A program made the position numbers and the translations under genes. The notes below the pieces were generated by a model that was given only the letters and a program-made list of their open reading frames with translations, had not been told where the DNA came from and made no database searches. 64,000 nt of DNA from positions 1 through 64,000 of the forward strand of contig PKDC01000017.1 of NCBI GenBank assembly GCA_002862435.1. The letters are read 5' to 3'. The DNA comes from Pseudomonadota bacterium. GTDB taxonomy: Bacteria; Pseudomonadota; Gammaproteobacteria; UBA5335. This document shows, in pieces, positions 4,636 through 34,808 of this stretch; position 1 is the stretch's first letter; each line of letters opens with the position of its first letter.

Positions 4636-5739
4636 TCAAGGCGCCGCATCAAAACTGACGCCCTTGATGAGTGCCCACACCGGCTGTCCCAGAGCAAGAT
4701 CCAGGGTTGCCAGGGATTCGCGGGTGATGCGCGCGCGCAGGTGTGGGTCGCACCCCGGTTGCGCCCCGACCAAGCCGAGCAGCACTTCCGCATAGGCACC
4801 GGCGGGATCGGTGTCAAGGCGAAGCACACGCGCAGCGAGTTGGTTGCGGATGCTGGTGCCCACCACGGGCGCCAGGGCGATGGCCACGTCGCGGGCGCGC
4901 ACCCGCAGCCGCACCGGGGTGCCGACAGGGACTGCTATCTGCGGTAGCGACAGTCGCTGCCCGGCGACCTCGACTTCGGTCAGCACATACTCCGGCACCT
5001 GCGCCGCCACGCGGGCATCGAATACCACACCGCCCTCGAAGGGACCGGAGACGGCTTCCGCTTCCGGTTGCTCCAGCACGGTCTGCACCGCGCCGCGTGC
5101 CACCACGGATCCATTGGCGAGGATCAGCACGTCCCCTGCAAGTTGGGCGACTTCCTCCACCGCGTGCGAGACGTAGAGGATCGGGATGCGAAAGTGCGCG
5201 GGCAACTGGCGGATGTAGGGCAGGAGTTCCACCTTGCGCTTGCGATCCAGCGCGGCCAGCGGCTCGTCCATCAGCAGCAGGCGCGGATGGGCCAGCAGCG
5301 CCCGGGCGATGGCCACACGCTGGCGCTCACCCCCAGATAGGCCCGCGGTGCGCCGATCGAGCAGGGGCAGCAGGTCCAGGGCGGTGATGACCTCGTCGAA
5401 GCCAGGCGCCTCAGCCCCCGGTCGTGCCCGGGCAAAAGCGTAGTGCAGGTTGCCGCGCACCGACCGGTGGGGGAACAGGCGCGCGTCCTGGAATACATAA
5501 CCGATGCCGCGCCGGTGCGGCGGCAGGCAGCGACCGGAGGCGCTGTCCAGGAGAATCTCGTCATCCAGGGTGATCTGCCCGCGTGCGCCGGTCTCCAGGC
5601 CGGCCAGCGCCCGCAGCAGGGTGCTCTTGCCGCTGCCCGACGCCCCCATCACGGCGGTGATGCCTGTGCACTCGATCGTCTCATTGAGGCGGAGCGTGAA
5701 CCCCGGATGACGGACTTCGATCATGCACTCAAGCTTCAT
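4636..5739 (-). CDS. modC: Molybdate ABC transporter, ATP-binding protein
   Basis: A 367-residue ATPase that powers molybdate import. Walker [10 protein letters not shown] lies near residue 32, with signature LSGGERQRV and Walker B LLLMDEPLAAL. The C-terminal third is a Mop/TOBE-type molybdate-sensing domain, typical of ModC and longer than a minimal ABC ATPase. It overlaps the modB stop by four bases (ATGA), so translation is probably coupled. An alternative internal start (MIEVRH) five codons downstream cannot be excluded. It is the last gene of the mod operon. Confidence 0.95.
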   Translation of the reverse strand: MKLECMIEVRHPGFTLRLNETIECTGITAVMGASGSGKSTLLRALAGLETGARGQITLDDEILLDSASGRCLPPHRRGIGYVFQDARLFPHRSVRGNLHYAFARARPGAEAPGFDEVITALDLLPLLDRRTAGLSGGERQRVAIARALLAHPRLLLMDEPLAALDRKRKVELLPYIRQLPAHFRIPILYVSHAVEEVAQLAGDVLILANGSVVARGAVQTVLEQPEAEAVSGPFEGGVVFDARVAAQVPEYVLTEVEVAGQRLSLPQIAVPVGTPVRLRVRARDVAIALAPVVGTSIRNQLAARVLRLDTDPAGAYAEVLLGLVGAQPGCDPHLRARITRESLATLDLALGQPVWALIKGVSFDAAP

Positions 5740-6413
5740 GCGGTGTGCACCGGGTAACGGCGGTTCAGCCCGTAGACCAGCACCAGCACGGCGAAGGAAA
5801 AGGCGAGGAATCCGCCGGCGAGCAGATGCGCCTGGGCGAAATTCAGCGTTTCCACCTGCTCATAGATCGCAATGGAAATGACCCGGGTGCGACCGGGAAT
5901 GTTGCCGCCCACCATCAGCACCACGCCGAACTCCCCCAAGGTATGCGCGAAACCCAGTACGGCGGCGGTGAGGTAGCCGCGCAGCGCCAAGGGGCTCGCC
6001 ACGGTAAGGAACGCATCCAACGGCCGCGCGCCCAGCACGGCGGCGGCTTCCAGCGGTCCGCGCCCGACCGCCTCGAAGGCGCCCTGCAAGGGCTGCACCA
6101 CGAAAGGCAACGAATAGATCATCGAGGCGATCACCAGGCCGCTGAAGGAGAAGGTCAGCGTCTCGCCGGTAAGATCAAGCCAGGCGTCGCCCAAGGGCGC
6201 GTTGGGGGCAAACAGGACCAACAGATAAAATCCCAGCACCGTGGGCGGCAGCACCAGCGGCAATGCGGTCAGGGCTTCGATCAGGGGTTTCATGCGCGTG
6301 CGGGTATGCGCCAGCCACCAGGCGAGCGGCGTACCGACCAGCAGCAGCAGTGCCACGGTGACCGTGGCGAGACGCAGCGTGAGCCAGACCGGGCCGAGGT
6401 CGAGATCGCTCAT
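5736..6413 (-). CDS. modB: Molybdate ABC transporter, permease
   Basis: A 225-residue inner-membrane permease with about five hydrophobic segments. The cytoplasmic loop EAAAVLGARPLDAFLTVASP matches the EAA motif that docks the ATPase. The segment ALPLVLPPTVLGFYLL is typical of ModB. The start lies three bases after the modA stop and the end overlaps modC, so modA, modB and modC form one transcriptional unit. Confidence 0.95.
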   Translation of the reverse strand: MSDLDLGPVWLTLRLATVTVALLLLVGTPLAWWLAHTRTRMKPLIEALTALPLVLPPTVLGFYLLVLFAPNAPLGDAWLDLTGETLTFSFSGLVIASMIYSLPFVVQPLQGAFEAVGRGPLEAAAVLGARPLDAFLTVASPLALRGYLTAAVLGFAHTLGEFGVVLMVGGNIPGRTRVISIAIYEQVETLNFAQAHLLAGGFLAFSFAVLVLVYGLNRRYPVHTA

Positions 6414-6416
6414 GAT

Positions 6417-7181
6417 TCAGGGCAACCGGTAGCCCAGCTCGGCGATCACTGCCCGGGCCGGCGGGCTTTTCAGATAGTCGAGCAAGGCCTTGGCCGCCGG
6501 GTTGTCGCGGGCGCGGGTGATGAGGATGGCATCTTGCTTGAGCGCCGGGTACAGCTCCTGCGGCACTTGCCAGGTACTGCCGGGCTTGCCGCCGGCCAGG
6601 ACCTGCGACAGCGCGACGAAGCCGGCTTCGGCCGCGCCGCTGGCCGTCATGGCATAGGCCTGCCCGATATCCTCCCCCCGCACGATTTTGTTCTGGACGA
6701 CCGACCACAAGCCCAGCTTTTCCAACGTCTGTTGCGCCGCGGCGCCATAGGGCGCGACGGCCGGATTGGCGATCACCAGGTGCCGAAACCCCCCGGTGCG
6801 CAGATAGGTCGCGCCATCGGCACCGAATCGGTCGGGATCCGGACTCCACAGCGCAAGCTGGCCGATGGCGTAGGTGAAGCGCGATGCCGGCACACCGAGG
6901 CCGCTTTGGGCCAGCAGCGCGGGACGTTCCGCATCGGCCGAGAGCAAGACATCGAAGGGCGCGCCCTGCTGAATCTGCGCGACGAACTTGCCCGAGGAGC
7001 CCAGTACCACGGTGAGCTGATGGCCACTCGCCTGTTCGAAGGCTGGCTCGATACGGGTCATGGCGGCGGCGAAATTGGCGGCCACGGCGGCCACGACTTC
7101 CTGCGCCTGCGCAGCGGATGCGGTGATCGCGAACAACGCGGCTACAAACGAGTGGCGCAAGAAAAGGGCTGGACGGGACAT
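6417..7181 (-). CDS. modA: Molybdate-binding periplasmic protein
   Basis: A 254-residue solute-binding protein with a Sec signal peptide (basic start, hydrophobic core, cleavage near AQA-QEV). The mature part has the ModA landmarks VAAVAANF, VLGSSGKF, GAPFDVLLSAD and the late segment QDAILITRA. The start at 7181 has AAAGGAG eight bases upstream; an earlier in-frame ATG at 7217 would extend past that ribosome site. It binds molybdate or tungstate in the periplasm and hands it to ModBC. The OprP-type porin gene immediately upstream may feed it. Confidence 0.93.
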   Translation of the reverse strand: MSRPALFLRHSFVAALFAITASAAQAQEVVAAVAANFAAAMTRIEPAFEQASGHQLTVVLGSSGKFVAQIQQGAPFDVLLSADAERPALLAQSGLGVPASRFTYAIGQLALWSPDPDRFGADGATYLRTGGFRHLVIANPAVAPYGAAAQQTLEKLGLWSVVQNKIVRGEDIGQAYAMTASGAAEAGFVALSQVLAGGKPGSTWQVPQELYPALKQDAILITRARDNPAAKALLDYLKSPPARAVIAELGYRLP

Positions 7182-7244: not shown

Positions 7245-8597
7245 CTAGAAATCCATATGGAGCCGCATGCCCCAGATGGACGGTTCATCACCATCGGCGG
7301 CATTGCCGGGGCGGTCCAGTTCCAGCACTTGGATGTGGTTCAGCATCAGCCGGATGTTGGAGGTGAGATACCAGTTCAGGGCCAGCGTCAGGTTGCGCTC
7401 ATGTCCTCCGATGACTGCGCCATCGTTCAGATCAAGCTCGCTCAGCCGGGCGGCAATTTCCCAGGCTCCCCAGCCGCCGAGGCCAACGCTGGCCAAGGGC
7501 TGTACCCGATCGAATACGCCTTCCGCCACCTTGTAGCCCCGGCGCTCACCGGTCAGCAGCCAGGCTGTTTGTGCATACCAGCCTGAAAAGTCAGTGTCTT
7601 GTGCGGCATCCTTGCCCTCGAGCGCGGTGCGCATGTATTCCGACTGGAAGGTCAGCGGTCCCCACAGCGCCGCCAATTCCGCGCCTGTGGCGAGAACATT
7701 GTCGGTATTGGCCAACACGCCGCTGTCCACCAGATAAACACCCGTGAGGTTTGATTCCGGTTTGGTTCGAAACCGCAGTGCATTGGTGGAGTCGTTGGGC
7801 TCGTGGCGCCGCACGCCAGCGCCGAAGTGGAGGACTGCGTCGGGCGTCAGCACCGGCGCAAAGGTAGCGCGCGCCGCCATATCCCAACCCTCGTCACCTT
7901 CATTGGAGACGTCGCCTTCCGGCCTTTCTCCGAATACACCGGCAGCGGCGCTCCATTGGCTGCCGGATGTGCGCGCCTCGACGCCGATGCCACGGCCAGG
8001 CGTCAGGATGTCGTTGATGCCACGCTCCAGAAAGAGCGTGGTGTTGTCGCTGGTCAGTTGTTCCATGCCAAAGGGTTCTTTGAAGTTTCCGACGGTCAGC
8101 AATGCCGGAGCGAAGCCCTTGTAGCGTAAGTAGGCGTCCGTGACGCCTTTGCTGCGGGTGCTGGTGGTGGCGTTGTCCGCAAATTCGTATTCGAGCATGT
8201 AATCGAAATCACGCGCCAGCGTACCGCGCGCATAGAGCCTGGCGCGGCGTAGGTCGGTGCCGTCGCCCAAGGCCTGCTTGTCCGCTTCATAGGCGGCAGC
8301 ATCGGCCTCGAGGCGTCCGCCGACCTGGAAACTGAAATCGTTGTTCGGGGAGGCGAACTTGAGGCTCTTGCCATCGGAGACGGGACGGATGAGGGTGGCG
8401 GATTCGACCCGTTGGCGTGCGGCGCGCTCCGCATCCAGTTCCGAACGGAGATTACCGACCAGGGTTTCCAATTGATTCAGTCGCTGCTGCATGGCGTCAA
8501 GATCGGTGGATGTTGCTTCGGTTCCAGATGCTGCAGCGTGCGCGGTCCCAACCGCCAGCATGGCGGCCGCGGCGAAAGGTAGGGTTTTGCGAGCCAT
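7245..8597 (-). CDS. OprP/OprO-type outer-membrane porin in the molybdate operon
   Basis: A 450-residue precursor with a signal peptide ending near AHA-AAS. A short coiled-coil segment follows (LDAMQQRLNQLETLVGNLRS) and then a beta-barrel of the phosphate/polyphosphate-selective porin family, with GGRLEADAA, LRRARLYARGTL, FKEPFGMEQLTS and a terminal Phe (LHMDF) recognized by the Bam machine. AAGGA precedes the ATG at 8597. It sits between modE and modA on the same strand. The porin family is known for anion selectivity, so a role in oxyanion (molybdate) entry across the outer membrane is an inference from context. Confidence 0.85.
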   Translation of the reverse strand: MARKTLPFAAAAMLAVGTAHAAASGTEATSTDLDAMQQRLNQLETLVGNLRSELDAERAARQRVESATLIRPVSDGKSLKFASPNNDFSFQVGGRLEADAAAYEADKQALGDGTDLRRARLYARGTLARDFDYMLEYEFADNATTSTRSKGVTDAYLRYKGFAPALLTVGNFKEPFGMEQLTSDNTTLFLERGINDILTPGRGIGVEARTSGSQWSAAAGVFGERPEGDVSNEGDEGWDMAARATFAPVLTPDAVLHFGAGVRRHEPNDSTNALRFRTKPESNLTGVYLVDSGVLANTDNVLATGAELAALWGPLTFQSEYMRTALEGKDAAQDTDFSGWYAQTAWLLTGERRGYKVAEGVFDRVQPLASVGLGGWGAWEIAARLSELDLNDGAVIGGHERNLTLALNWYLTSNIRLMLNHIQVLELDRPGNAADGDEPSIWGMRLHMDF

Positions 8598-8637
8598 GAG
8601 ATGTCCTTCGGTTATCGCGGGAACAAGCTTGAGGGAA

Positions 8638-8660
8638 GACCCCCGCACGGCGCGGGGGTC
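8638..8660 (-). terminator. GC-rich hairpin between modE and the porin gene
   Basis: Perfect 9-bp stem GACCCCCGC / GCGGGGGTC with loop ACGGC. On the minus strand it is followed only by TTCCCTC, so it may be a partial terminator or an mRNA-stabilizing structure that sets the modE to transporter ratio. Confidence 0.5.
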
Positions 8661-8692
8661 CGGGCAGTGGTTGCGGGTCAGGCAACCCCGGC

Positions 8693-9499
8693 TTAGGCGT
8701 TGATCCCCAGAATCACGCTGCCGGCCTTGAATACCGCACAGGCCCGCTCGCCTTCCTGTAAGCCCAAGTGTTCCAGGCTGTCCAGGGTGATGATGGCGCT
8801 GATGGTGGCACCGCCTGGCAGGCCGATCACCACGTCGGCGTTGACTCCGCCGCGAGTGATGCGCGAGACCGTGCCGCACAGCCGGTTGCGGGCGGAGAGC
8901 TTGATCCCCGGTTCATCCAGGGTGATCAGTACGGAAGGGGCCTTCACCAGGGCCCAGACTTCGCTGCCCGGGGCGAGCTTCATGTCGGCGAGGCTTTCCA
9001 TGGTGATCATGGCGGTGAGGTGGTCATGGATGTTCAGGGCAATCTCGACTTCGGCATTCACGGCGCCGGTGCGGATGCCGGTGATGGTTCCAAAAAACTG
9101 ATTGCGGGCACTGGTTTTCACGGCCAATCTCCTGATGAGTTGATAGGTTTCCGCCTGATCCAGCCGCTCCTGCAGCTGGATCAGGAAACGACGCTGGTGT
9201 TCGCACACCACCCGATAGGTGAGCACGATCCGTTCCCCGGCCTGGGTCAACCGGGTGCCCCCGCCGTCGCTGCCGCCGCTTTGGGTGACCACCAGCGGTT
9301 CACCCGCCAGATTGCGCAGGGCATCGACGGCGTTCCAGGCCGCGCGATAACTCATTCCCACCGCCTTGGCTGCCTGGCTGATCGAGCCGGTTTTTCCGAT
9401 TCGCTCCAGGAGCTCGATACGCTGGTCTTCCAGCGGTCCCTGGCCGTCGGGACCCAGATTGATGCGGCCCTTGATCTGCCAGCGGGGTTGAGCGTCCAT
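8693..9499 (-). CDS. modE: Molybdate-responsive transcriptional regulator ModE
   Basis: A 268-residue regulator. The N-terminal winged helix-turn-helix (about residues 20-110) contains GSISQAAKAVGMSYRAAWN, the typical ModE DNA-binding helix region. The C terminus carries two Mop domains (about 127-195 and 200-265), each opening with SARNQ/RL..G motifs that bind molybdate. GGAGG lies five bases before the ATG at 9499. In characterized bacteria molybdate-bound ModE represses modABC. I could not find a close match to the E. coli ModE operator upstream of modE or modA. Confidence 0.94.
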   Translation of the reverse strand: MDAQPRWQIKGRINLGPDGQGPLEDQRIELLERIGKTGSISQAAKAVGMSYRAAWNAVDALRNLAGEPLVVTQSGGSDGGGTRLTQAGERIVLTYRVVCEHQRRFLIQLQERLDQAETYQLIRRLAVKTSARNQFFGTITGIRTGAVNAEVEIALNIHDHLTAMITMESLADMKLAPGSEVWALVKAPSVLITLDEPGIKLSARNRLCGTVSRITRGGVNADVVIGLPGGATISAIITLDSLEHLGLQEGERACAVFKAGSVILGINA

Positions 9500-9649
9500 G
9501 TGTCCTCCGGATGCGTATTGCATCGAGTTGCATAACGGGTGTCGTACAAACCGTCGCGATTGAGAGAAGCAGGAAACGGGCCAAGGGCGCCATGCCTGCG
9601 TCTATCTCGCCGAATAATTCTTAACTTGCTGTTTTATTGATTATTTTTA

Positions 9650-9782: not shown

Positions 9783-10601
9783 TCAGTGAGGGGACTTTGA
9801 TTGGGGACGGGAATTCGATCTGCGCACGGCGCCCAGGGGCCGGACCGCAATGCCGGCCCTGGCGAGGGCTTGGCGGATGCGCTGGACGAGCGCCAGGGCA
9901 GTGGGGCTGTCTCCGTGCACACACAGGGTGTCGGCCGTCATGGCGACGCTTTGTCCATCGCGGGCGCGCAAATGGCCCTGCTGCAGGAGGCTGAGCACCT
10001 GATTTGCGGCCTCATCGGGATCATGGATCAAGGCGTCGGGATGACGCCGCGGGGTGAGGCTGCCGTCGGCCTCGTAGCGGCGATCGGCGAAGGCTTCCCG
10101 GCCGACCGTCAGTCCGTGTGCGAGTCCGGCTTCGATCAGCGCGCTGCCCGCGAGGCCCACCAAGACCAGACTTGGATCGAAATCGCGGATTGCCTGGGCG
10201 ATGGCCGCCGCCCGTTCGGGATTCCGCGCGGCCTGGTTGTAGAGGGCGCCGTGGGGTTTGACGTGGACCAGGGGGGCACCCGCCGCCTGGGCGATGGCTG
10301 CCAGAGCGCTGATCTGCTCGGTCACCAGCCGGTAAACCGCCTCGGGCGGCAGGTCGAGAGGGCGACGTCCGAAGTGTTCCCGGTCGGCATAGCCTGGATG
10401 GGCACCGATGGCCACGCCGTGCGCTGCGGCTTCGGCGACGGTGCGGGCCATGGTCTGCGCATCCCCGGCATGGGCGCCGCAGGCGATGTTGGCCGAGGAC
10501 ACCAGGGCCAGCAGCGCCGCGTCCGCCGGCCCGCCTTCCCCTAAGTCGGCGTTCAGATCGATACGCCGTTCGCGCCCCCCGGTGTCCACAACCCCGTTCA
10601 T
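9783..10601 (-). CDS. pxpA: LamB/YcsF family 5-oxoprolinase subunit A
   Basis: A 272-residue protein of the family whose members, with PxpB and PxpC, hydrolyse 5-oxoproline to glutamate using ATP. Family motifs are IDLNADLGEG at the N terminus, NIACGAHAGD, GAHPGYAD, VKPHGALYN and EAFADRRYEADGSLTPR, and VHGDS late. The ATG at 10601 lies 16 bases after the agmatine deiminase stop, so the two are likely co-transcribed. pxpB and pxpC are not in this window, so either they lie elsewhere or this copy works alone. Confidence 0.9.
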   Translation of the reverse strand: MNGVVDTGGRERRIDLNADLGEGGPADAALLALVSSANIACGAHAGDAQTMARTVAEAAAHGVAIGAHPGYADREHFGRRPLDLPPEAVYRLVTEQISALAAIAQAAGAPLVHVKPHGALYNQAARNPERAAAIAQAIRDFDPSLVLVGLAGSALIEAGLAHGLTVGREAFADRRYEADGSLTPRRHPDALIHDPDEAANQVLSLLQQGHLRARDGQSVAMTADTLCVHGDSPTALALVQRIRQALARAGIAVRPLGAVRRSNSRPQSKSPH

Positions 10602-10617
10602 GAATCGGCCCGCCGTG

Positions 10618-11730
10618 TCACGGCGCGGGGTCGAGGCTCGGCACGGCGGCGGGCAACTGCATGGTGACGCAGTGCAGGCTGCCGAACTGATGGACCAGCG
10701 CCGTGCAGTCGATAGGTACGATGGTGCGATCCGGAAAGACCGATTGCAGCCGGAGCTGGACCTCGGCATCGGCGGGGTCGCGATAGGCCGGCATCAGCAC
10801 GGCGCCGTTGAGAATGAGGAAATTGGCATAGGTGGCGGGCAGGCGCCGGCCGGTATCGTCCCGGATGGGGCGGGGCAGCGGCAGGGGAACCAGCCGATAG
10901 GGGCGGCCGTCGGCGCGGCGCAGCGCGGCCAGTTCCGCCGCCATGGCCCGCAGGGGCGCGAAATGGACATCCTCGGGATCCTCGCAGGCTTGATAGACGA
11001 GGGTGGCTGGATCGGCAAAACGCGCCAGGGTGTCGATGTGTCCGTCCGTGTCGTCGCCTTCCAGATGACCATGCGTCAGCCACAACACCCGCTCGATGCC
11101 CAGATGCAGGCGAAGCTGCGTCTCGACGGCCGCCTGCGTCACGCCCGGATTGCGTCGTGGATCGAGCAGGCAAGACGTCGTGGTGAGCAGGTTGCCCTGC
11201 CCGTCGCTTTCCAGGGCGCCGCCTTCCAGTACGAAATCCACCCTCCGCCGCGGTGTCTCGCCGAATACGCCCGCGTTGTGCAGGCGGGCGGGGATGGCGT
11301 CATCGAGATCGCTGGGGTATTTGCCACCCCAGGCATTGAAGCGGAAATCCAGCAGCACCGGCTGGCCGTTCTCCAGCACGGTGAGCGGGCCGTGGTCGCG
11401 CACCCAGGAGTCATTGCTCGGCGCAACGGCGATGTGCAGGCGCGCCACCTGGGCGGGGGAAGGATCAATTCGGGCGCGCACCGCATCGACCAGCGCGGCG
11501 CGGTGCACGGCCACCAGCAGGTGCTCATGGACGAGAACGGCCTGGGCGATGGCGGCGAAGGTGGCCTCGGCCGCCGCCAGATTGGGCGCCCAGTCGGTTT
11601 CGCTGTGAGGCCAGGTCAGCAGGATGGCGGATTGGGGTTCCCATTCAGCAGGGAAGCGCACGGCAGGAGCGGGCATGGCGGGGGTCCAGATAGCGGTCGG
11701 TATGGGGCAGGAGTAGAGCATAATTGCCAT
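10618..11730 (-). CDS. aguA: Agmatine deiminase (peptidyl-arginine deiminase family)
   Basis: Hydrolyses agmatine to N-carbamoylputrescine and ammonia in putrescine synthesis. The 370-residue protein shows PAEWEPQSAILLTWPH, NDSWVRDHGP, EGGALESDG, THGHLEGDDTDGHID and the catalytic Cys in GSLHC near the C terminus. The ATG at 11730 has TTGGAG upstream. A later ATG at 11676 (MPAPAV), giving 352 residues, fits the family length equally well. The next enzyme, N-carbamoylputrescine amidase, is at 60353-61240. Confidence 0.9.
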   Translation of the reverse strand: MAIMLYSCPIPTAIWTPAMPAPAVRFPAEWEPQSAILLTWPHSETDWAPNLAAAEATFAAIAQAVLVHEHLLVAVHRAALVDAVRARIDPSPAQVARLHIAVAPSNDSWVRDHGPLTVLENGQPVLLDFRFNAWGGKYPSDLDDAIPARLHNAGVFGETPRRRVDFVLEGGALESDGQGNLLTTTSCLLDPRRNPGVTQAAVETQLRLHLGIERVLWLTHGHLEGDDTDGHIDTLARFADPATLVYQACEDPEDVHFAPLRAMAAELAALRRADGRPYRLVPLPLPRPIRDDTGRRLPATYANFLILNGAVLMPAYRDPADAEVQLRLQSVFPDRTIVPIDCTALVHQFGSLHCVTMQLPAAVPSLDPAP

Positions 11731-28973: not shown

Positions 28974-30242
28974 ATGATGCGCGCCATTTCCGCTGTTTTC
29001 GCGCGGCCCGTTCCGGGCATTTTGCTGCTGGCTATTCTGTTATCGGCACTGAGCGCCTGCGGCAAAGAAGACAAGGGCGGTAATCCCCAGGGCGCCGCAC
29101 CACCGGCGGCTGAGGTGGGTGTGATCACCCTGCAACCGCGGGATGTGCCCATCGAAAACGAATACGCCGGTCGTACGGCGGGATTCCGAGAGGTCGAGGT
29201 GCGGGCACGAGTGACCGGCATCGTGCAAAAGCGCACCTACGTGGAAGGCCAGCGCGTCAAGGCTGGCGACATCCTGTTCAACATCGATCCGGCACCTTTC
29301 GCGGTGGCTCTGGCGCGAGCCCAGGCCCGGTTGCAGGATGGCCAGGCCCAGTTGCGACAAGCCGAGCGGGACTGGGCGCGCGTTTCAGCGCTGTTTGCGG
29401 AGAACGCCATCAGCGCGCGCGAGCGCGATACCTCGCAATCCACCCTGGATCTGGCGCGCGCCAACCTGGCGGCTGCCAGCACCGATGTCGAAGCAGCCCG
29501 CATTGACTTGAGTTATACCCGCGTCGAAGCCCCAGTGAGTGGCATCACCAGCCTCGAAGTGCGCTCCGAGGGCAGCCTGGTCGGCCCAGGTGCGGCCGAC
29601 AGCCTGCTGACTCGCATCACCCAGCTCGACCCCCTGTACGTCAACTTTTCCTATCCCGATACGGATGCCCTGCGCCAACGCCAGTTGCTGGCCAGCGGAG
29701 AGCTGACGATGGTGGGGGGGGAGCGTCTGGCTGCCGAACTGCGCTTCGGCGATGGCACGGTTTACAGCCAACAGGGCCATATCAGCTTCACCGACAGCAG
29801 CATCGATCCTGCGACCGGCACTGTGCGCGCCCGGGCGGTGTTCCCTAATCCGGACGCCAGTATCCTGCCGGGTCAGTTCGTGCGCATCGTGCCCAAGGGC
29901 CTGGTGCGCCAGGCGGCGATGGTGGTGCCGCAGGCGGCGGTGATGCAGGGTCCGCAAGGGACCTTCGTTTATCTGGTGGGGGATGACAGCAAGGCCAAGG
30001 TTCAGCCGGTCCGGCCAGGCAGCACCATTGGTGCCGAGTGGCTGATTGAGGAAGGGCTGAAGCCGGGTGACCAGGTGATCGTCGATGGCGTGATCAAGGT
30101 GCGCCCGGGCGCACCGGTCAAGCCGGCCGCTGCCCAAACCCAACCCGGAAAAGCCACTGATCCTGCGCCGGCCGGCAAGGAAGAAAAGACCAGTGAAGAG
30201 AAGAAGCCTTCCGCTTCGGCCGAACGGAGTATGAAGGCATGA
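28974..30242 (+). CDS. RND efflux periplasmic adaptor lipoprotein (AcrA/MexA-like)
   Basis: A 422-residue membrane-fusion protein. The signal ends in a lipobox ([10 protein letters not shown]), so it is anchored to the inner membrane by lipid. The lipoyl/barrel-sandwich halves flank an alpha-helical hairpin (about residues 100-175) that docks the outer-membrane channel. The segment [20 protein letters not shown] is typical. The C-terminal tail is Lys/Glu rich and longer than usual. Two tandem ATGs (28974 and 28977) are possible. It overlaps the pump gene by four bases. Confidence 0.92.
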
Positions 30243-33200
30243 TTTCCGCTTTCTTCATTCGTCGCCCGGTCTTTGCCTCGGTCCTGTCCATCGTGATCGT
30301 GCTGGCTGGACTCATGTCCATGCGTGCCCTGCCCATTGCGCAGTACCCGGACATCGTGCCGCCAGAAGTGGTGGTGAGCACCAATTATCCGGGCGCCAGC
30401 GCCGAGGTGATTGCCGAGACCGTCGCCGGTCCCATGGAGCAGGAAATCAACGGCGTCGAGAACATGCTCTACATGCGCTCGGTGGCCTCCGCCAGTGGTC
30501 AAGTCCGCATCACGATCAGCTTTGCCATCGGCACCGATCCCGACCAGGCCACCATCGACGTCAACAATCGGGTGAAGGCCGCCGAAGCGCGTCTGCCGGA
30601 GGAGGTGCGACGGCAAGGGGTGCGCGTACAGAAGCGCTCCAGCAGCATCCTGGCGCTTATCGCCATGAACTCGCCCACGGGCCAGTATGACTCGGTCTTC
30701 ATCAGCAACTATGCCTTGCTCAATGTCATCGACGAAATCAAGCGCATTCCGGGCGTGGGCGATGCCTCGCTGTTTGGCCAGAAAGACTATTCGATGCGCA
30801 TCTGGTTGCGCCCCGACAAGCTGGCACAGTTCAACCTGACCGCAAGCGACGTGGCACAGGCGATCCAGGAGCAGAACGCCCAGTTCGCCGCTGGCCAGTT
30901 TGGCCAGGAGCCGATCAGTGGCGAAAACGCCTACACCTATACCGTCAACACCCTGGGCCGGCTGGCGGATCCCGCAGCTTTCGGTCACATCATCCTGCGC
31001 TCGGATCCCTCGGGCGCCACGCTGCGCCTGAGCGATGTGGCGCGGGTGGAGCTGGGGGCGCAGGATTACAATTTCGAAGCCAGCTACAACGGCAAGCCGG
31101 CAGTTCCCATCGGTCTCTACCTGCAGCCCGGTGCCAATGCCCTGGAGACGGTCGACGCCATCCGCGCCAAGATGGCCGAGATTTCCCAGCGTTTCCCCGA
31201 TGGCCTGGCCTACGACATCCCCTTTGACACCACCAAGTTCGTCCGCGTGTCGATCGAGGAAGTGATCCGCACCTTCATCGAGGCCATCGTGCTGGTGGTG
31301 CTGGTGGTGTTCATCTTCCTGCAGAACCCGCGTGCCACCTTGATTCCGCTGCTGGCGGTGCCGGTGTCCATCATCGGGACCTTTGCGGGCATGCTGCTGC
31401 TCGGGTTCTCGATCAACCTGCTGACGCTCTTCGGATTGGTGCTCGCCATCGGCATCGTGGTGGATGACGCCATCATCGTGATCGAGAACGTCGAGCGCCT
31501 CATGAGTACCGAGGGGCTGAGCCCACGCGACGCCGCCTTCAAGGCCATGGAAGAGGTGACCGGCCCGGTCATTGCCATCGTGCTGGTGCTCTCGGCCGTG
31601 TTCATCCCGGTGGCCTTTCTGGGTGGTCTCAGCGGACAGATGTATCAGCAGTTCGCCATCACCATCGTGATCTCCGTGATCATTTCCGGGATCGTCGCGC
31701 TCACCCTGACCCCCGCCTTGTGCGCCCTGCTGCTCAAGCCAGTGCACAAGCAACCGGCGCTGCCGTTCCGGGTGTTCAACCGCCTGTTCGACCGCACCAC
31801 CAATGGTTATGTAAGCGCGTCCAGCTTCCTGATGCGGCGGGGCTTGCTGGGAATGGTGCTGTTCGCCGGCCTGATGGGGATCACGGTACTTCTGTTCAAT
31901 CGCGTCCCCGGCGGCCTGGTGCCAGCCGAAGACCAGGGTTATGTGTTGATGGCTTACCAGACGCCGCCGGCCGCCTCGCTGGATCGCACCAAGGCGATCA
32001 CCGACGAGGCCACCCGTCGCATGCTTGCGCAGGACACCGTTGATTCCGTGGTGACCTTTGCCGGTTTCGATATCCTGGCCCAATCCCAGAAGACCAGCTC
32101 CGGCGTGTCCTTCGTGATGCTGAAGGACTGGAGCGAGCGAACGGCGGCCGAAGACGATGCACGCGTCCTGGTCAAGCCGCTTGCAGGTCTGGGTCAGGAT
32201 CTGCGCGATGGCGTGATGTTCGGCTTCAACCCGCCGCCCATCACCGGCATGAGCACCACGGGCGGATTTGAGGCCTACCTGCAGGATCGTGCCGGCGCCG
32301 GCAGCGCCGCCCTGATGGAAACCACCAACCGCCTGCTGGAGGCGGCGCGCAAGCGCCCCGAACTCACCGGCCTGCGCACCACCTTTTCCACCGGCACGCC
32401 GCAGTATTTTGCGGAACTGGATCGAGAGAAGGCGCGGGCGTTGAATGTGCCTATCAACCAGGTGTTCACCATCATGCAGAGCACCTTCGGCAGCCTGTAT
32501 GTCAACGATTTCACCCTGTACGGGCGCAGCTACCGGGTGAATCTGCAATCGGAAGCGGATTTCCGTCGCTCGCCCGAGGATCTGCGGCATGTCTTTGTGC
32601 GCTCCAATGACGGGAATCTGGTACCCCTGGACGCCTTGTTGAATGTCAAGCGCACCATCGGCCCGGATCTGGTGGAGCGTTTCAATGTCTTCCCGGCGGC
32701 CAAGATCCTGGGCGAACCGGCACCGGGCTACAGTTCCGGCCAGGCCATCGCCGCCATGCAGGCCGTGAGTCAGGAAGTCCTGGATAACAACTATTCCGTG
32801 GGCTGGGTCGGCTCGGCGTATCAGGAACTCGCCACGGCGGGAACCGGGACGCTGGCCTTCGTATTCGGCATTGTCATGGTGTTTCTCATCCTGGCGGCGC
32901 AGTACGAGCGCTGGAGTCTGCCCTTTGCGGTGGTGACGGCCGTGCCTTTCGCGGTCTTCGGCGCCATTGCCGCCACCTGGCTGCGTGGACTGGAGAACGA
33001 TCTGTACTTCCAGATTGGTCTGCTCACGCTGATTGGTCTGTCGGCGAAGAATGCGATCCTGATCGTCGAATTCGCCATGCTTCACCGACGCGAAGGGGCG
33101 TCCATCTATGATGCTGCGCTGCAGGGCGCGCGCCTGCGCTTCCGGCCGATCGTCATGACTTCTCTGGCCTTCATGCTCGGCGTGCTTCCGCTGGCCATCA

Positions 33201-33379
33201 GCAGCGGCGCCGGGTCCGCCAGCCGCCATGCCATCGGGACCGGCGTCATCGGCGGCATGATCGCGGCCACCTTCCTGGCCACGCTCTTCGTGCCCATGTT
33301 CTTTGTCCTGATCGGCCGGCTGACGGAGCGAACGACGCCGCACGGCGCGCCCAGCGAGGAGAAAAATGCGCATGGTTAA
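30239..33379 (+). CDS. RND multidrug efflux transporter, HAE1 family (AcrB/MexB-like)
   Basis: A 1046-residue inner-membrane proton antiporter of normal family length with twelve predicted membrane segments and two large periplasmic loops. The proton relay Asp pair is present in [18 protein letters not shown] (TM4), and the conserved Lys region lies in [15 protein letters not shown] (TM10-11). It exports hydrophobic drugs and solvents through the adaptor and the OprM-like channel. Translation is coupled on both sides: ATGA overlap with the adaptor and a 14-bp overlap with the channel gene. Confidence 0.95.
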
Positions 33380-34808
33380 GCAGATTCCATTGTTGTTGCT
33401 GGCGGTGGGTCTTTCCGGCTGCGTGCTGGGTCCTGATCATGTGCGACCGGAGAGCGATCTTCCCAGCGGTTGGGTGGCGGCCGCGGGAGCAGCCAGCGCG
33501 TCACCAGCAGCGACTGGCGTAGATCCCCAGTGGTGGCGCGCATTCAACGACGCGACGCTCACCGGGCTGGTGGAGGAAGCGCTGCAGCAGAATGCCGACC
33601 TGTCCCTGGCTGCGGCTCGCATCGCCGAGGCGCGCGCGGTGCTCCGGCTGCGGGATGCGGAGCGCTATCCGCTGTTGAGTGGCCAGGCCAACGGCGCGCG
33701 CCAGCAGGGGAGCGAGGAGACAGCGATTCCGGGCGGTGGCACGATCTACAACGACTTCAACGTCTCGGCGGTGCTGAATTACGAGATCGATCTGTGGGGG
33801 CGGCTGGCGCGGGCCAGCGAGGCGGCGCGGGCGCAATTGCTGGCCGGCGTGGCCAGCCGCGATGCCATCCGTCTGGCGGTGGCGGCGGACGTGGCTTCTG
33901 GCTACTTCAACCTGCGTGCCCTGGACCAGCAACTGGCCATCGCCGAGCGTACTGTGCAGACTCGACAGGAGGGCTACCGCTTCCAAGAATCGCGCTATCG
34001 CAATGGCGCCGTTTCCCAGTTGGTGTTCCGCCAGGCGGAATCGGAACTGGCCGCTGCCCGCGCCGAGTTGCCGGCGCTGCGCCAGCAGCGCGTGCTGCAG
34101 ATCAATGCCCTGAGCGTATTGCTCGGGCGCACGCCCCGCGAGATTGTGCAACAGGGGATTCCCGATGGCCGGCCAATCGATGATCTTCCCGCCATGCCGG
34201 AAGTGCCCATGGGATTGCCCTCCGCCCTACTGGAACGTCGGCCGGACATCCGCGCCGCCGAAGCGCAGTTGCAGGCCGCCAATGCCCAGATCGGTATTGC
34301 TCGCGCCGCTTACTTCCCAACCCTGTCCCTCACGGGTGTGTTCGGGACCCAGAGCGATGAATTGAGCAATCTGTTCAACGGACCGGCTCAGACCTGGCAG
34401 TTTGCGGGTGGTTTGGTGGGGCCAATCATTGATTTTGGGCGCACAGAGGCCAATGTCCGCGCTGCCGAGGCGCGCCGTCAGCAGGCGCTGGTGAACTACC
34501 AGCAGACCGTACGCATCGCCTTCCGCGAGGTGCTCGACGCGCTGGAAAGCCGCAGCGCAACCAGCGAGCGACTGGTGGCACAGGATCAGCAGATCACCGC
34601 CTTGCGGGAAACGGCGCGTCTTGCCCAGCGCCGCTTCGACGAAGGCTATTCGGACTATCTTGAAGTGCTGGATGCCCAGCGCAGCCTGTTCACCGTGGAG
34701 CTTTCGCGCGTGACGACTCAGCAGCAGCGATTGCGCGCCCTGGTTCAACTCTACAAGGCCCTGGGCGGCGGCTGGCAGGTGGATGCGCTGGCCCAGGCAG
34801 AGCGCTGA
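33366..34808 (+). CDS. Outer-membrane efflux channel lipoprotein (OprM/NodT type)
   Basis: A 480-residue TolC-superfamily channel. The signal peptide ends in the lipobox LSGC-VLG. Two repeated halves each carry long helices; the segments [20 protein letters not shown] and [20 protein letters not shown] are typical of the NodT family. It completes the tripartite pump. Its last codons and stop (from 34796) fall inside a 69-bp sequence repeated at 36944-37012 and derived from a transposase remnant, so the natural C terminus was probably altered by the adjacent insertion. Confidence 0.93.

Follow-up and report, generated by a model that had tools for sequence, protein, structure and literature searches.

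An OprP-type porin gene within a molybdate operon headed by a likely ModE operator

Passage of molybdate across the outer membrane is usually credited to general porins. The 64,000-nucleotide stretch of gammaproteobacterial DNA analysed here (contig PKDC01000017.1 of assembly GCA_002862435.1, positions 1 to 64,000; hereafter the window) raises the question of whether a molybdate operon can carry an outer-membrane channel of its own and, if so, which anion that channel would admit. An earlier note on this DNA had placed an OprP/OprO-type porin between modE and modA on the same strand. Open reading frames and profile searches confirmed the gene order: on the minus strand, modE is followed by the porin gene, modA, modB and modC, and the porin gene does lie within the mod operon. 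The range 7245-9499 comprises the porin gene and modE together. The features of the locus are as follows:

4636..5739, minus strand: modC, ATPase with TOBE domain (TIGR02142, above cut-off)
5736..6413, minus strand: modB, permease (TIGR02141, above cut-off)
6417..7181, minus strand: modA, molybdate-binding protein (TIGR01256, above cut-off)
7245..8597, minus strand: porin of the OprP/OprO family (PF07396), 450 aa (Pfam, AlphaFold2, Foldseek)
8638..8660, minus strand: G+C-rich hairpin between modE and the porin gene, without a T run (spacer fold)
8693..9499, minus strand: modE, molybdate-responsive regulator, HTH and two Mop domains (TIGR00638, TIGR00637)
9514..9537, minus strand: likely ModE operator, palindrome CGTTATGCA-N6-TGCAATACG (genome and six-locus comparison)

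The modC and modB genes overlap by 4 bp, and the porin gene is separated by spacers of 95 bp from modE and 63 bp from modA. ModE matched TIGR00638 (Mop domain) above cut-off in two stretches, and its match to TIGR00637 (94.3 bits) was slightly below the cut-off of 98.5. Its start was set at 9499 because a start at 9523 would overlap the operator and because GGAGGA precedes 9499. Folding of the 95-bp modE-porin spacer gave the hairpin at 8638-8660, with a stem of 10 pairs; it is absent from the terminator scan output and might serve in processing or attenuation. The same strand carries, upstream of the mod operon, genes for a LamB/YcsF family protein and an agmatine deiminase-like protein (9783-10769 and 10618-11700). 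Elsewhere in the window, 28974-34808 holds a complete RND efflux set (adaptor, permease and outer-membrane factor). A scan for viral contigs gave no result.

The porin reading frame opens with an ATG preceded by GAAGGACATCTC and encodes 450 residues, the last of which is F. A signal peptide was assigned by eye; the structural model shows a helical N-terminal region, of low confidence to about residue 28. The protein matched PF07396 (Porin_O_P) over model positions 1-370 of 370 (E 1.6e-75, 255 bits against a cut-off of 20.9), and a profile search of the 2.88 Mb genome returned it as the sole member of this family. An AlphaFold2 model built from 45 aligned relatives (mean pLDDT 88.5) contains an N-terminal helix (30-68) and 16 long strands, counted manually, from 88-104 to 440-449. 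Foldseek with this model returned OprP (2o4v; TM 0.73/0.80, 27% identity) as the best match and OprO next, and a PDB sequence search returned OprP (E 2e-30) and two OprO entries. The porin is thus predicted to be a 16-stranded barrel of the OprP type.

We then asked if the linkage is conserved. P0001 had a match in 14 of 37 relatives, and 51 of the 274 genomes of the class sample had a porin match at E 1e-20 or better. The complete arrangement modE-porin-modABC is shared by G157 and G268, both from another family, whose porins are 75% and 63% identical to that of the window, and by the metagenome-assembled Pseudomonadales bacterium SJ235 (64% identical). Partial versions were also recovered: porin-modA-modB-modC in G002 of the same genus (PKCW01000111.1), where the contig end cuts at the porin; modE-porin-modA in G176, from yet another family, where the porin shows just 27% identity and the contig ends in modB; and porin-modABC in G266, where no modE was seen nearby and ModA, ModB and ModC are above or near the NCBIfam cut-offs. 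A relative of G176, G289, has the same operon with complete modABC, a missing modE start and a porin in three frames. At this locus (L162, 4717-6714) the first part of modE is absent and in-frame stops interrupt the porin, modA and mop being intact; either decay or sequencing error may be the cause. The linkage that the earlier note had asked about is therefore kept and recurrent. Its statement that a porin is no standard part of mod operons also holds: modA had 149 matches (manual row count) in 140 of 274 class genomes, and an adjacent PF07396 porin was found at five of these 149 (window genome, G157, G268, G176 and G266), so that the porin is rare in mod operons, yet recurrent.

Gain and loss could be followed within the genus of the window. 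G003, a member of that genus, has ycsF-modE-modABC with no intact porin, and its ycsF-modE synteny is the same as in the window. Its modE-modA spacer is 132 bp long, ends in frame with ...SPRQWIGARLHLDF-stop, and holds one feature:

L126 (G003) 6678-6809: apparent porin C-terminal relic in the modE-modA spacer (shuffle test)

Compared with the end of the G002 porin gene, this spacer matched at 24 of 30 bases (manual count of the printed alignment) and scored 35, the maximum in 1000 simple shuffles being 29. It also exceeded shuffles against the porin ends of G157 and G268, was not above shuffles against that of SJ235, and was significant against the window porin only at another place. On the likeliest reading of these alignments, the genus ancestor already had the porin, and G003 has since lost it by deletion. 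Since G003 lacks an intact porin, the porin would be dispensable.

How might the operon be regulated? A palindrome, CGTTATGCA-N6-TGCATAACG with few changes, lies upstream of modE at all six modE loci examined (window, G157, G268, SJ235, G003 and G176). The window copy, at 9514-9537, lies 14 bp before the modE start codon. At up to 3 mismatches the pattern matched once in the 2.88 Mb window genome and its reversal not at all, the number of matches expected in the window being 0.02. The E. coli ModE consensus is of the CGTTAT...ATAACG type (PMC545781, available text); the window palindrome agrees with it at 10 of 20 positions, though its make-up is similar. Used alone, the E. coli consensus missed the site in the window, G157 and G268, and singled out the site in SJ235, G003 and G176. 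A palindrome scan of 16 genomes at up to 3 mismatches returned nine sites in eight genomes. The five sites inspected (in the window genome, G003, G157, G268 and G176) were all at modE; the remaining four were in G285, G287, G289 and, as a second site, G268. Because the reversed-pattern control also matched, in G003, G029, G287 and G010, single sites at 3 mismatches mean little. A sigma-70 scan found no promoter-like site. The palindrome at 9514-9537 is likely the ModE operator for the whole operon and, as it is conserved, single in the genome and located at modE, our best inference is that ModE controls the operon, porin included. On the comparison of loci, the gene context and the putative regulation of the porin are both well supported.

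We also considered the wider family. The neighbourhoods of 92 porin loci were read with tblastn markers, 76 of them, in 51 genomes, being the whole class sample. Loci were labelled phosphate by phoB, phoR or pstS, tungstate type by TupA-like proteins or their ModE-HTH regulator, sulfate by sulfate-binding proteins and molybdate by modA; the counts leave out L103 and L105 (duplicates of the G002 and G171 loci) and porin matches shorter than 150 aa (L039). Of the 76 class-sample loci, 42 adjoin oxyanion genes, with the phosphate label at 21, tungstate type at 10, sulfate at 6 and molybdate at 5, "tungstate type" being a family-level label because the TupA matches, at 232-246 bits, are below the equivalog cut-off of 400. 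At the other 34 loci none of the transporter markers was found nearby. When the markers were compared with NCBIfam, the sulfate-binding protein, CysT and CysW of G268 were above cut-off. A second porin (52%) is present in both G157 and G268, ahead of a sulfate-binding protein, two CysT/CysW-type permeases and a CysA-like ATPase; this sulfate importer operon with its paralogous porin lies a few kilobases from the mod operon (L063 15180-19999 in G157; L064 3037-8087 in G268). This repeated siting beside molybdate, tungstate, sulfate and phosphate importers suggests a dedicated outer gate for each ion.

Two further arrangements were observed. At tungstate-type loci (L023, L024, L067, L071 and others), porin-tupA stands divergent to the gene of a regulator in which a ModE-like HTH precedes a domain resembling binding proteins (PRK14498 C-terminal match); no TupB or TupC was seen in the sequence covered around L023. 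In a Myxococcota metagenome-assembled genome (L115 1641-8145), a porin and a probable multihaem cytochrome (CxxCH motifs recognised by eye) are found together with WtpA, a permease and a WtpC-like ATPase, one gene separating the porin from WtpA.

In a tree of 93 rows, from which L147 (< 300 aa) was left out, the four close mod-linked rows form a clade with the window porin (100, starred). The sister of this clade consists of two sulfate-linked rows (100, starred) and two tungstate-linked rows join next (92, unstarred), OprP and OprO lying elsewhere in the tree. The seven mod-linked rows need three changes in this tree, and the starred branches force three. AU tests, run on 46 labelled rows under a simpler model with the OTH rows and L134 left out, rejected a single clade of the seven mod-linked rows (p-AU 5e-10), of the six that remain without G266 (p-AU 3e-5) and of the six sulfate-linked rows (p-AU 0.005). 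Since a single mod-linked clade is rejected, either porin and mod genes were paired on three or more separate occasions or one porin took the place of another within the operon. We read this as at least three recruitments of PF07396 porins into mod operons; for G176, in-place replacement of the porin is an alternative to recruitment. The mod porin of G268 (L064 12751-14085) is a mosaic: its first ~100 residues are 88-92% identical to the G157 porin (L063 7469-8806), and in its barrel 50-residue blocks reach up to 100% identity with the SJ235 porin, which suggests recombination that swapped the barrel.

Residues at the OprP anion site were compared by alignment. OprP R34, R59, R60, R133 and S124 correspond to R95, R117, R118, R192 and S183 of the window porin; their equivalents are retained in nearly all mod-linked rows, and OprP R218 is also retained in the window porin. 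The phosphate site of OprP includes D94 and R133, according to the available part of PMC5877670. Changes at OprP sites are Y62 to R120, Y114 to K173, D94 to T153 and R220 to K279, and further K121 to Q, K126 to N and R222 to E. In these alignments the OprO row is 4rjx, an F62Y/D114Y mutant, and the residues that it shows at 62 and 114 are thus those of the mutant. A search for a mod-specific signature at this site showed that the most conspicuous changes, R for Y62 and K for Y114, are family-wide: all 22 rows linked to Pho genes have R at position 62, and 14 of them have K at 114, so that neither residue marks molybdate. Net charge also failed to split the groups (median K+R-D-E of -11 for mod-, -12 for sulfate-, -13 for tungstate- and -10 for phosphate-linked rows). 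The remaining candidates for mod-specific positions at OprP sites are T153 and K279, which set five close mod-linked porins apart from their sulfate-linked sisters (R, R).

Taking these observations together, we consider it likely that the porin is a ModE-controlled outer-membrane channel that supplies molybdate to ModABC. The support consists of the same-strand order with short spacers, the recurrence of the linkage, the palindrome, the lone PF07396 protein of the genome, the placement of PstS elsewhere, the sister porins ahead of sulfate importer genes near the mod operon in G157 and G268, the anion-site arginines and the OprP fold. The earlier note had proposed a dedicated oxyanion porin, and the conserved, recurrent linkage and the ModE-type palindrome speak for it; we infer that molybdate would be the main substrate, that the genes would be co-transcribed and that ModE would act as repressor. 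In such a scheme modE, the porin gene and modABC would form a single transcript from a promoter upstream of modE, which molybdate-bound ModE would switch off at the 9514-9537 palindrome. When molybdate is scarce, ModE would depart and the anion channel would be made along with periplasmic ModA and the ABC transporter of the inner membrane; molybdate, and perhaps tungstate or sulfate as well, would then diffuse through the arginine-lined pore and be captured by ModA. Points against this reading are the hairpin between modE and the porin gene, the G003 operon with no intact porin, the anion-site pattern shared with phosphate-linked members, the 34 class-sample loci at which no marker was found and the small share of modA matches (5 of 149) with a neighbouring porin. 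In addition, the window genome has one general porin match (PF13609), so molybdate need not depend on the mod-operon porin. Besides NuoG, it encodes one Mo/W-bis-MGD oxidoreductase, the best match of which, formate dehydrogenase alpha, is below cut-off. Together these indicate that molybdate is needed and that a general route may exist.

The strongest competing explanation, to which we give a little less than an even chance, is that the porin is a broad oxyanion channel that admits sulfate, phosphate and molybdate alike, is under ModE incidentally and helps molybdenum uptake with no preference. Porins linked to mod, sulfate, tungstate and phosphate genes do share the anion-site residue pattern, the sister clade is tied to sulfate genes, and a sulfate-linked paralog coexists with the mod porin in G157 and G268. 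That these two genomes keep separate sulfate and molybdate paralogs side by side nevertheless argues for some specialisation, as does the contrast between T153 and K279 in the mod clade and R, R in the sulfate sister at the OprP D94 and R220 positions.

It is improbable that a classical phosphate porin was brought into the mod operon by chance, even though PF07396 is named for phosphate porins and Pho linkage is the label of 21 of the 76 class-sample loci. Regulation by phosphate alone, which the earlier note had named as evidence against its proposal, is not indicated: the single ModE-type palindrome of the genome is at the head of the operon, a good Pho box was not found (best match 10 of 14 positions), none of phoB, phoR and pstS occurs within 5 kb of the window porin, and the PstS-type match of the genome is on another contig. 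We reject a chance misplacement on these grounds, on the at least three independent pairings with modA and on the tree, where the window porin falls among sulfate- and tungstate-linked porins, away from OprP. A contig or binning artefact, with the porin or the whole contig foreign to the organism, is still far less probable. The assembly does comprise 70 contigs with 6.19% contamination, but independent assemblies contradict this explanation: G157, G268 and SJ235 have the gene order of the window, G002 has it up to the contig end that cuts it, and G003 shares the ycsF-modE synteny.

The locus can be compared with known systems. With OprP and OprO the window porin shares the Pfam family, the top PDB sequence and fold matches and the retained R34, R59, R60, R133 and S124; it differs in its 27% identity and in its location, which is a mod operon headed by a ModE-type operator and not a Pho locus. 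The operon resembles the E. coli type modABC-modE in its two-Mop ModE, in ModA, ModB and ModC and in a palindrome of the CGTTAT...ATAACG type, but it has a porin between modE and modA, and modE leads on the same strand. ExtI of Geobacter sulfurreducens, as described in the accessible text of PMC5877670, is a PF07396-annotated porin ~12-13% identical to OprP/OprO, is encoded in a cytochrome cluster and is the proposed channel for selenite and tellurite; like the window porin it is proposed for an oxyanion other than phosphate but, unlike it, is not linked to an ABC importer in that text. The T6SS-ModA-IcmP route of P. aeruginosa (secreted ModA and the outer-membrane protein IcmP; PMC8602904, available part) also acts on molybdate at the outer-membrane level, but has no porin in a mod operon as far as that part describes it. 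Geobacter psp, a PF07396-like gene after a Fur box (excerpt of PMC545781), resembles the window porin as a family member under a metal regulator other than Pho, its predicted context being ferrous iron. Within the openly accessible literature, outside which subscription journals mostly fall, we found no molybdate, tungstate or sulfate porin of the PF07396 family in the texts available. The finding, an OprP-family channel with a likely ModE operator, paired with ModABC, is real, conserved and recurrent.

More broadly, and tentatively, PF07396 proteins may be outer-membrane front ends for tetrahedral oxyanions that have been re-paired time and again with the ABC importer and regulator of a single ion (phosphate, tungstate, sulfate or molybdate); the window porin would then be a ModE-controlled channel dedicated to molybdate, with a tuned binding site. 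Our results call for caution in labelling every PF07396 protein phosphate-selective. If the proposed role is true, outer-membrane passage of a trace metal oxyanion would be a regulated step, through a dedicated channel run by ModE. As the family is paired with importers of four oxyanions, including sulfate and molybdate paralogs in one genome, it would offer a natural series on oxyanion discrimination, in which to ask how a passive pore tells tetrahedral oxyanions apart.
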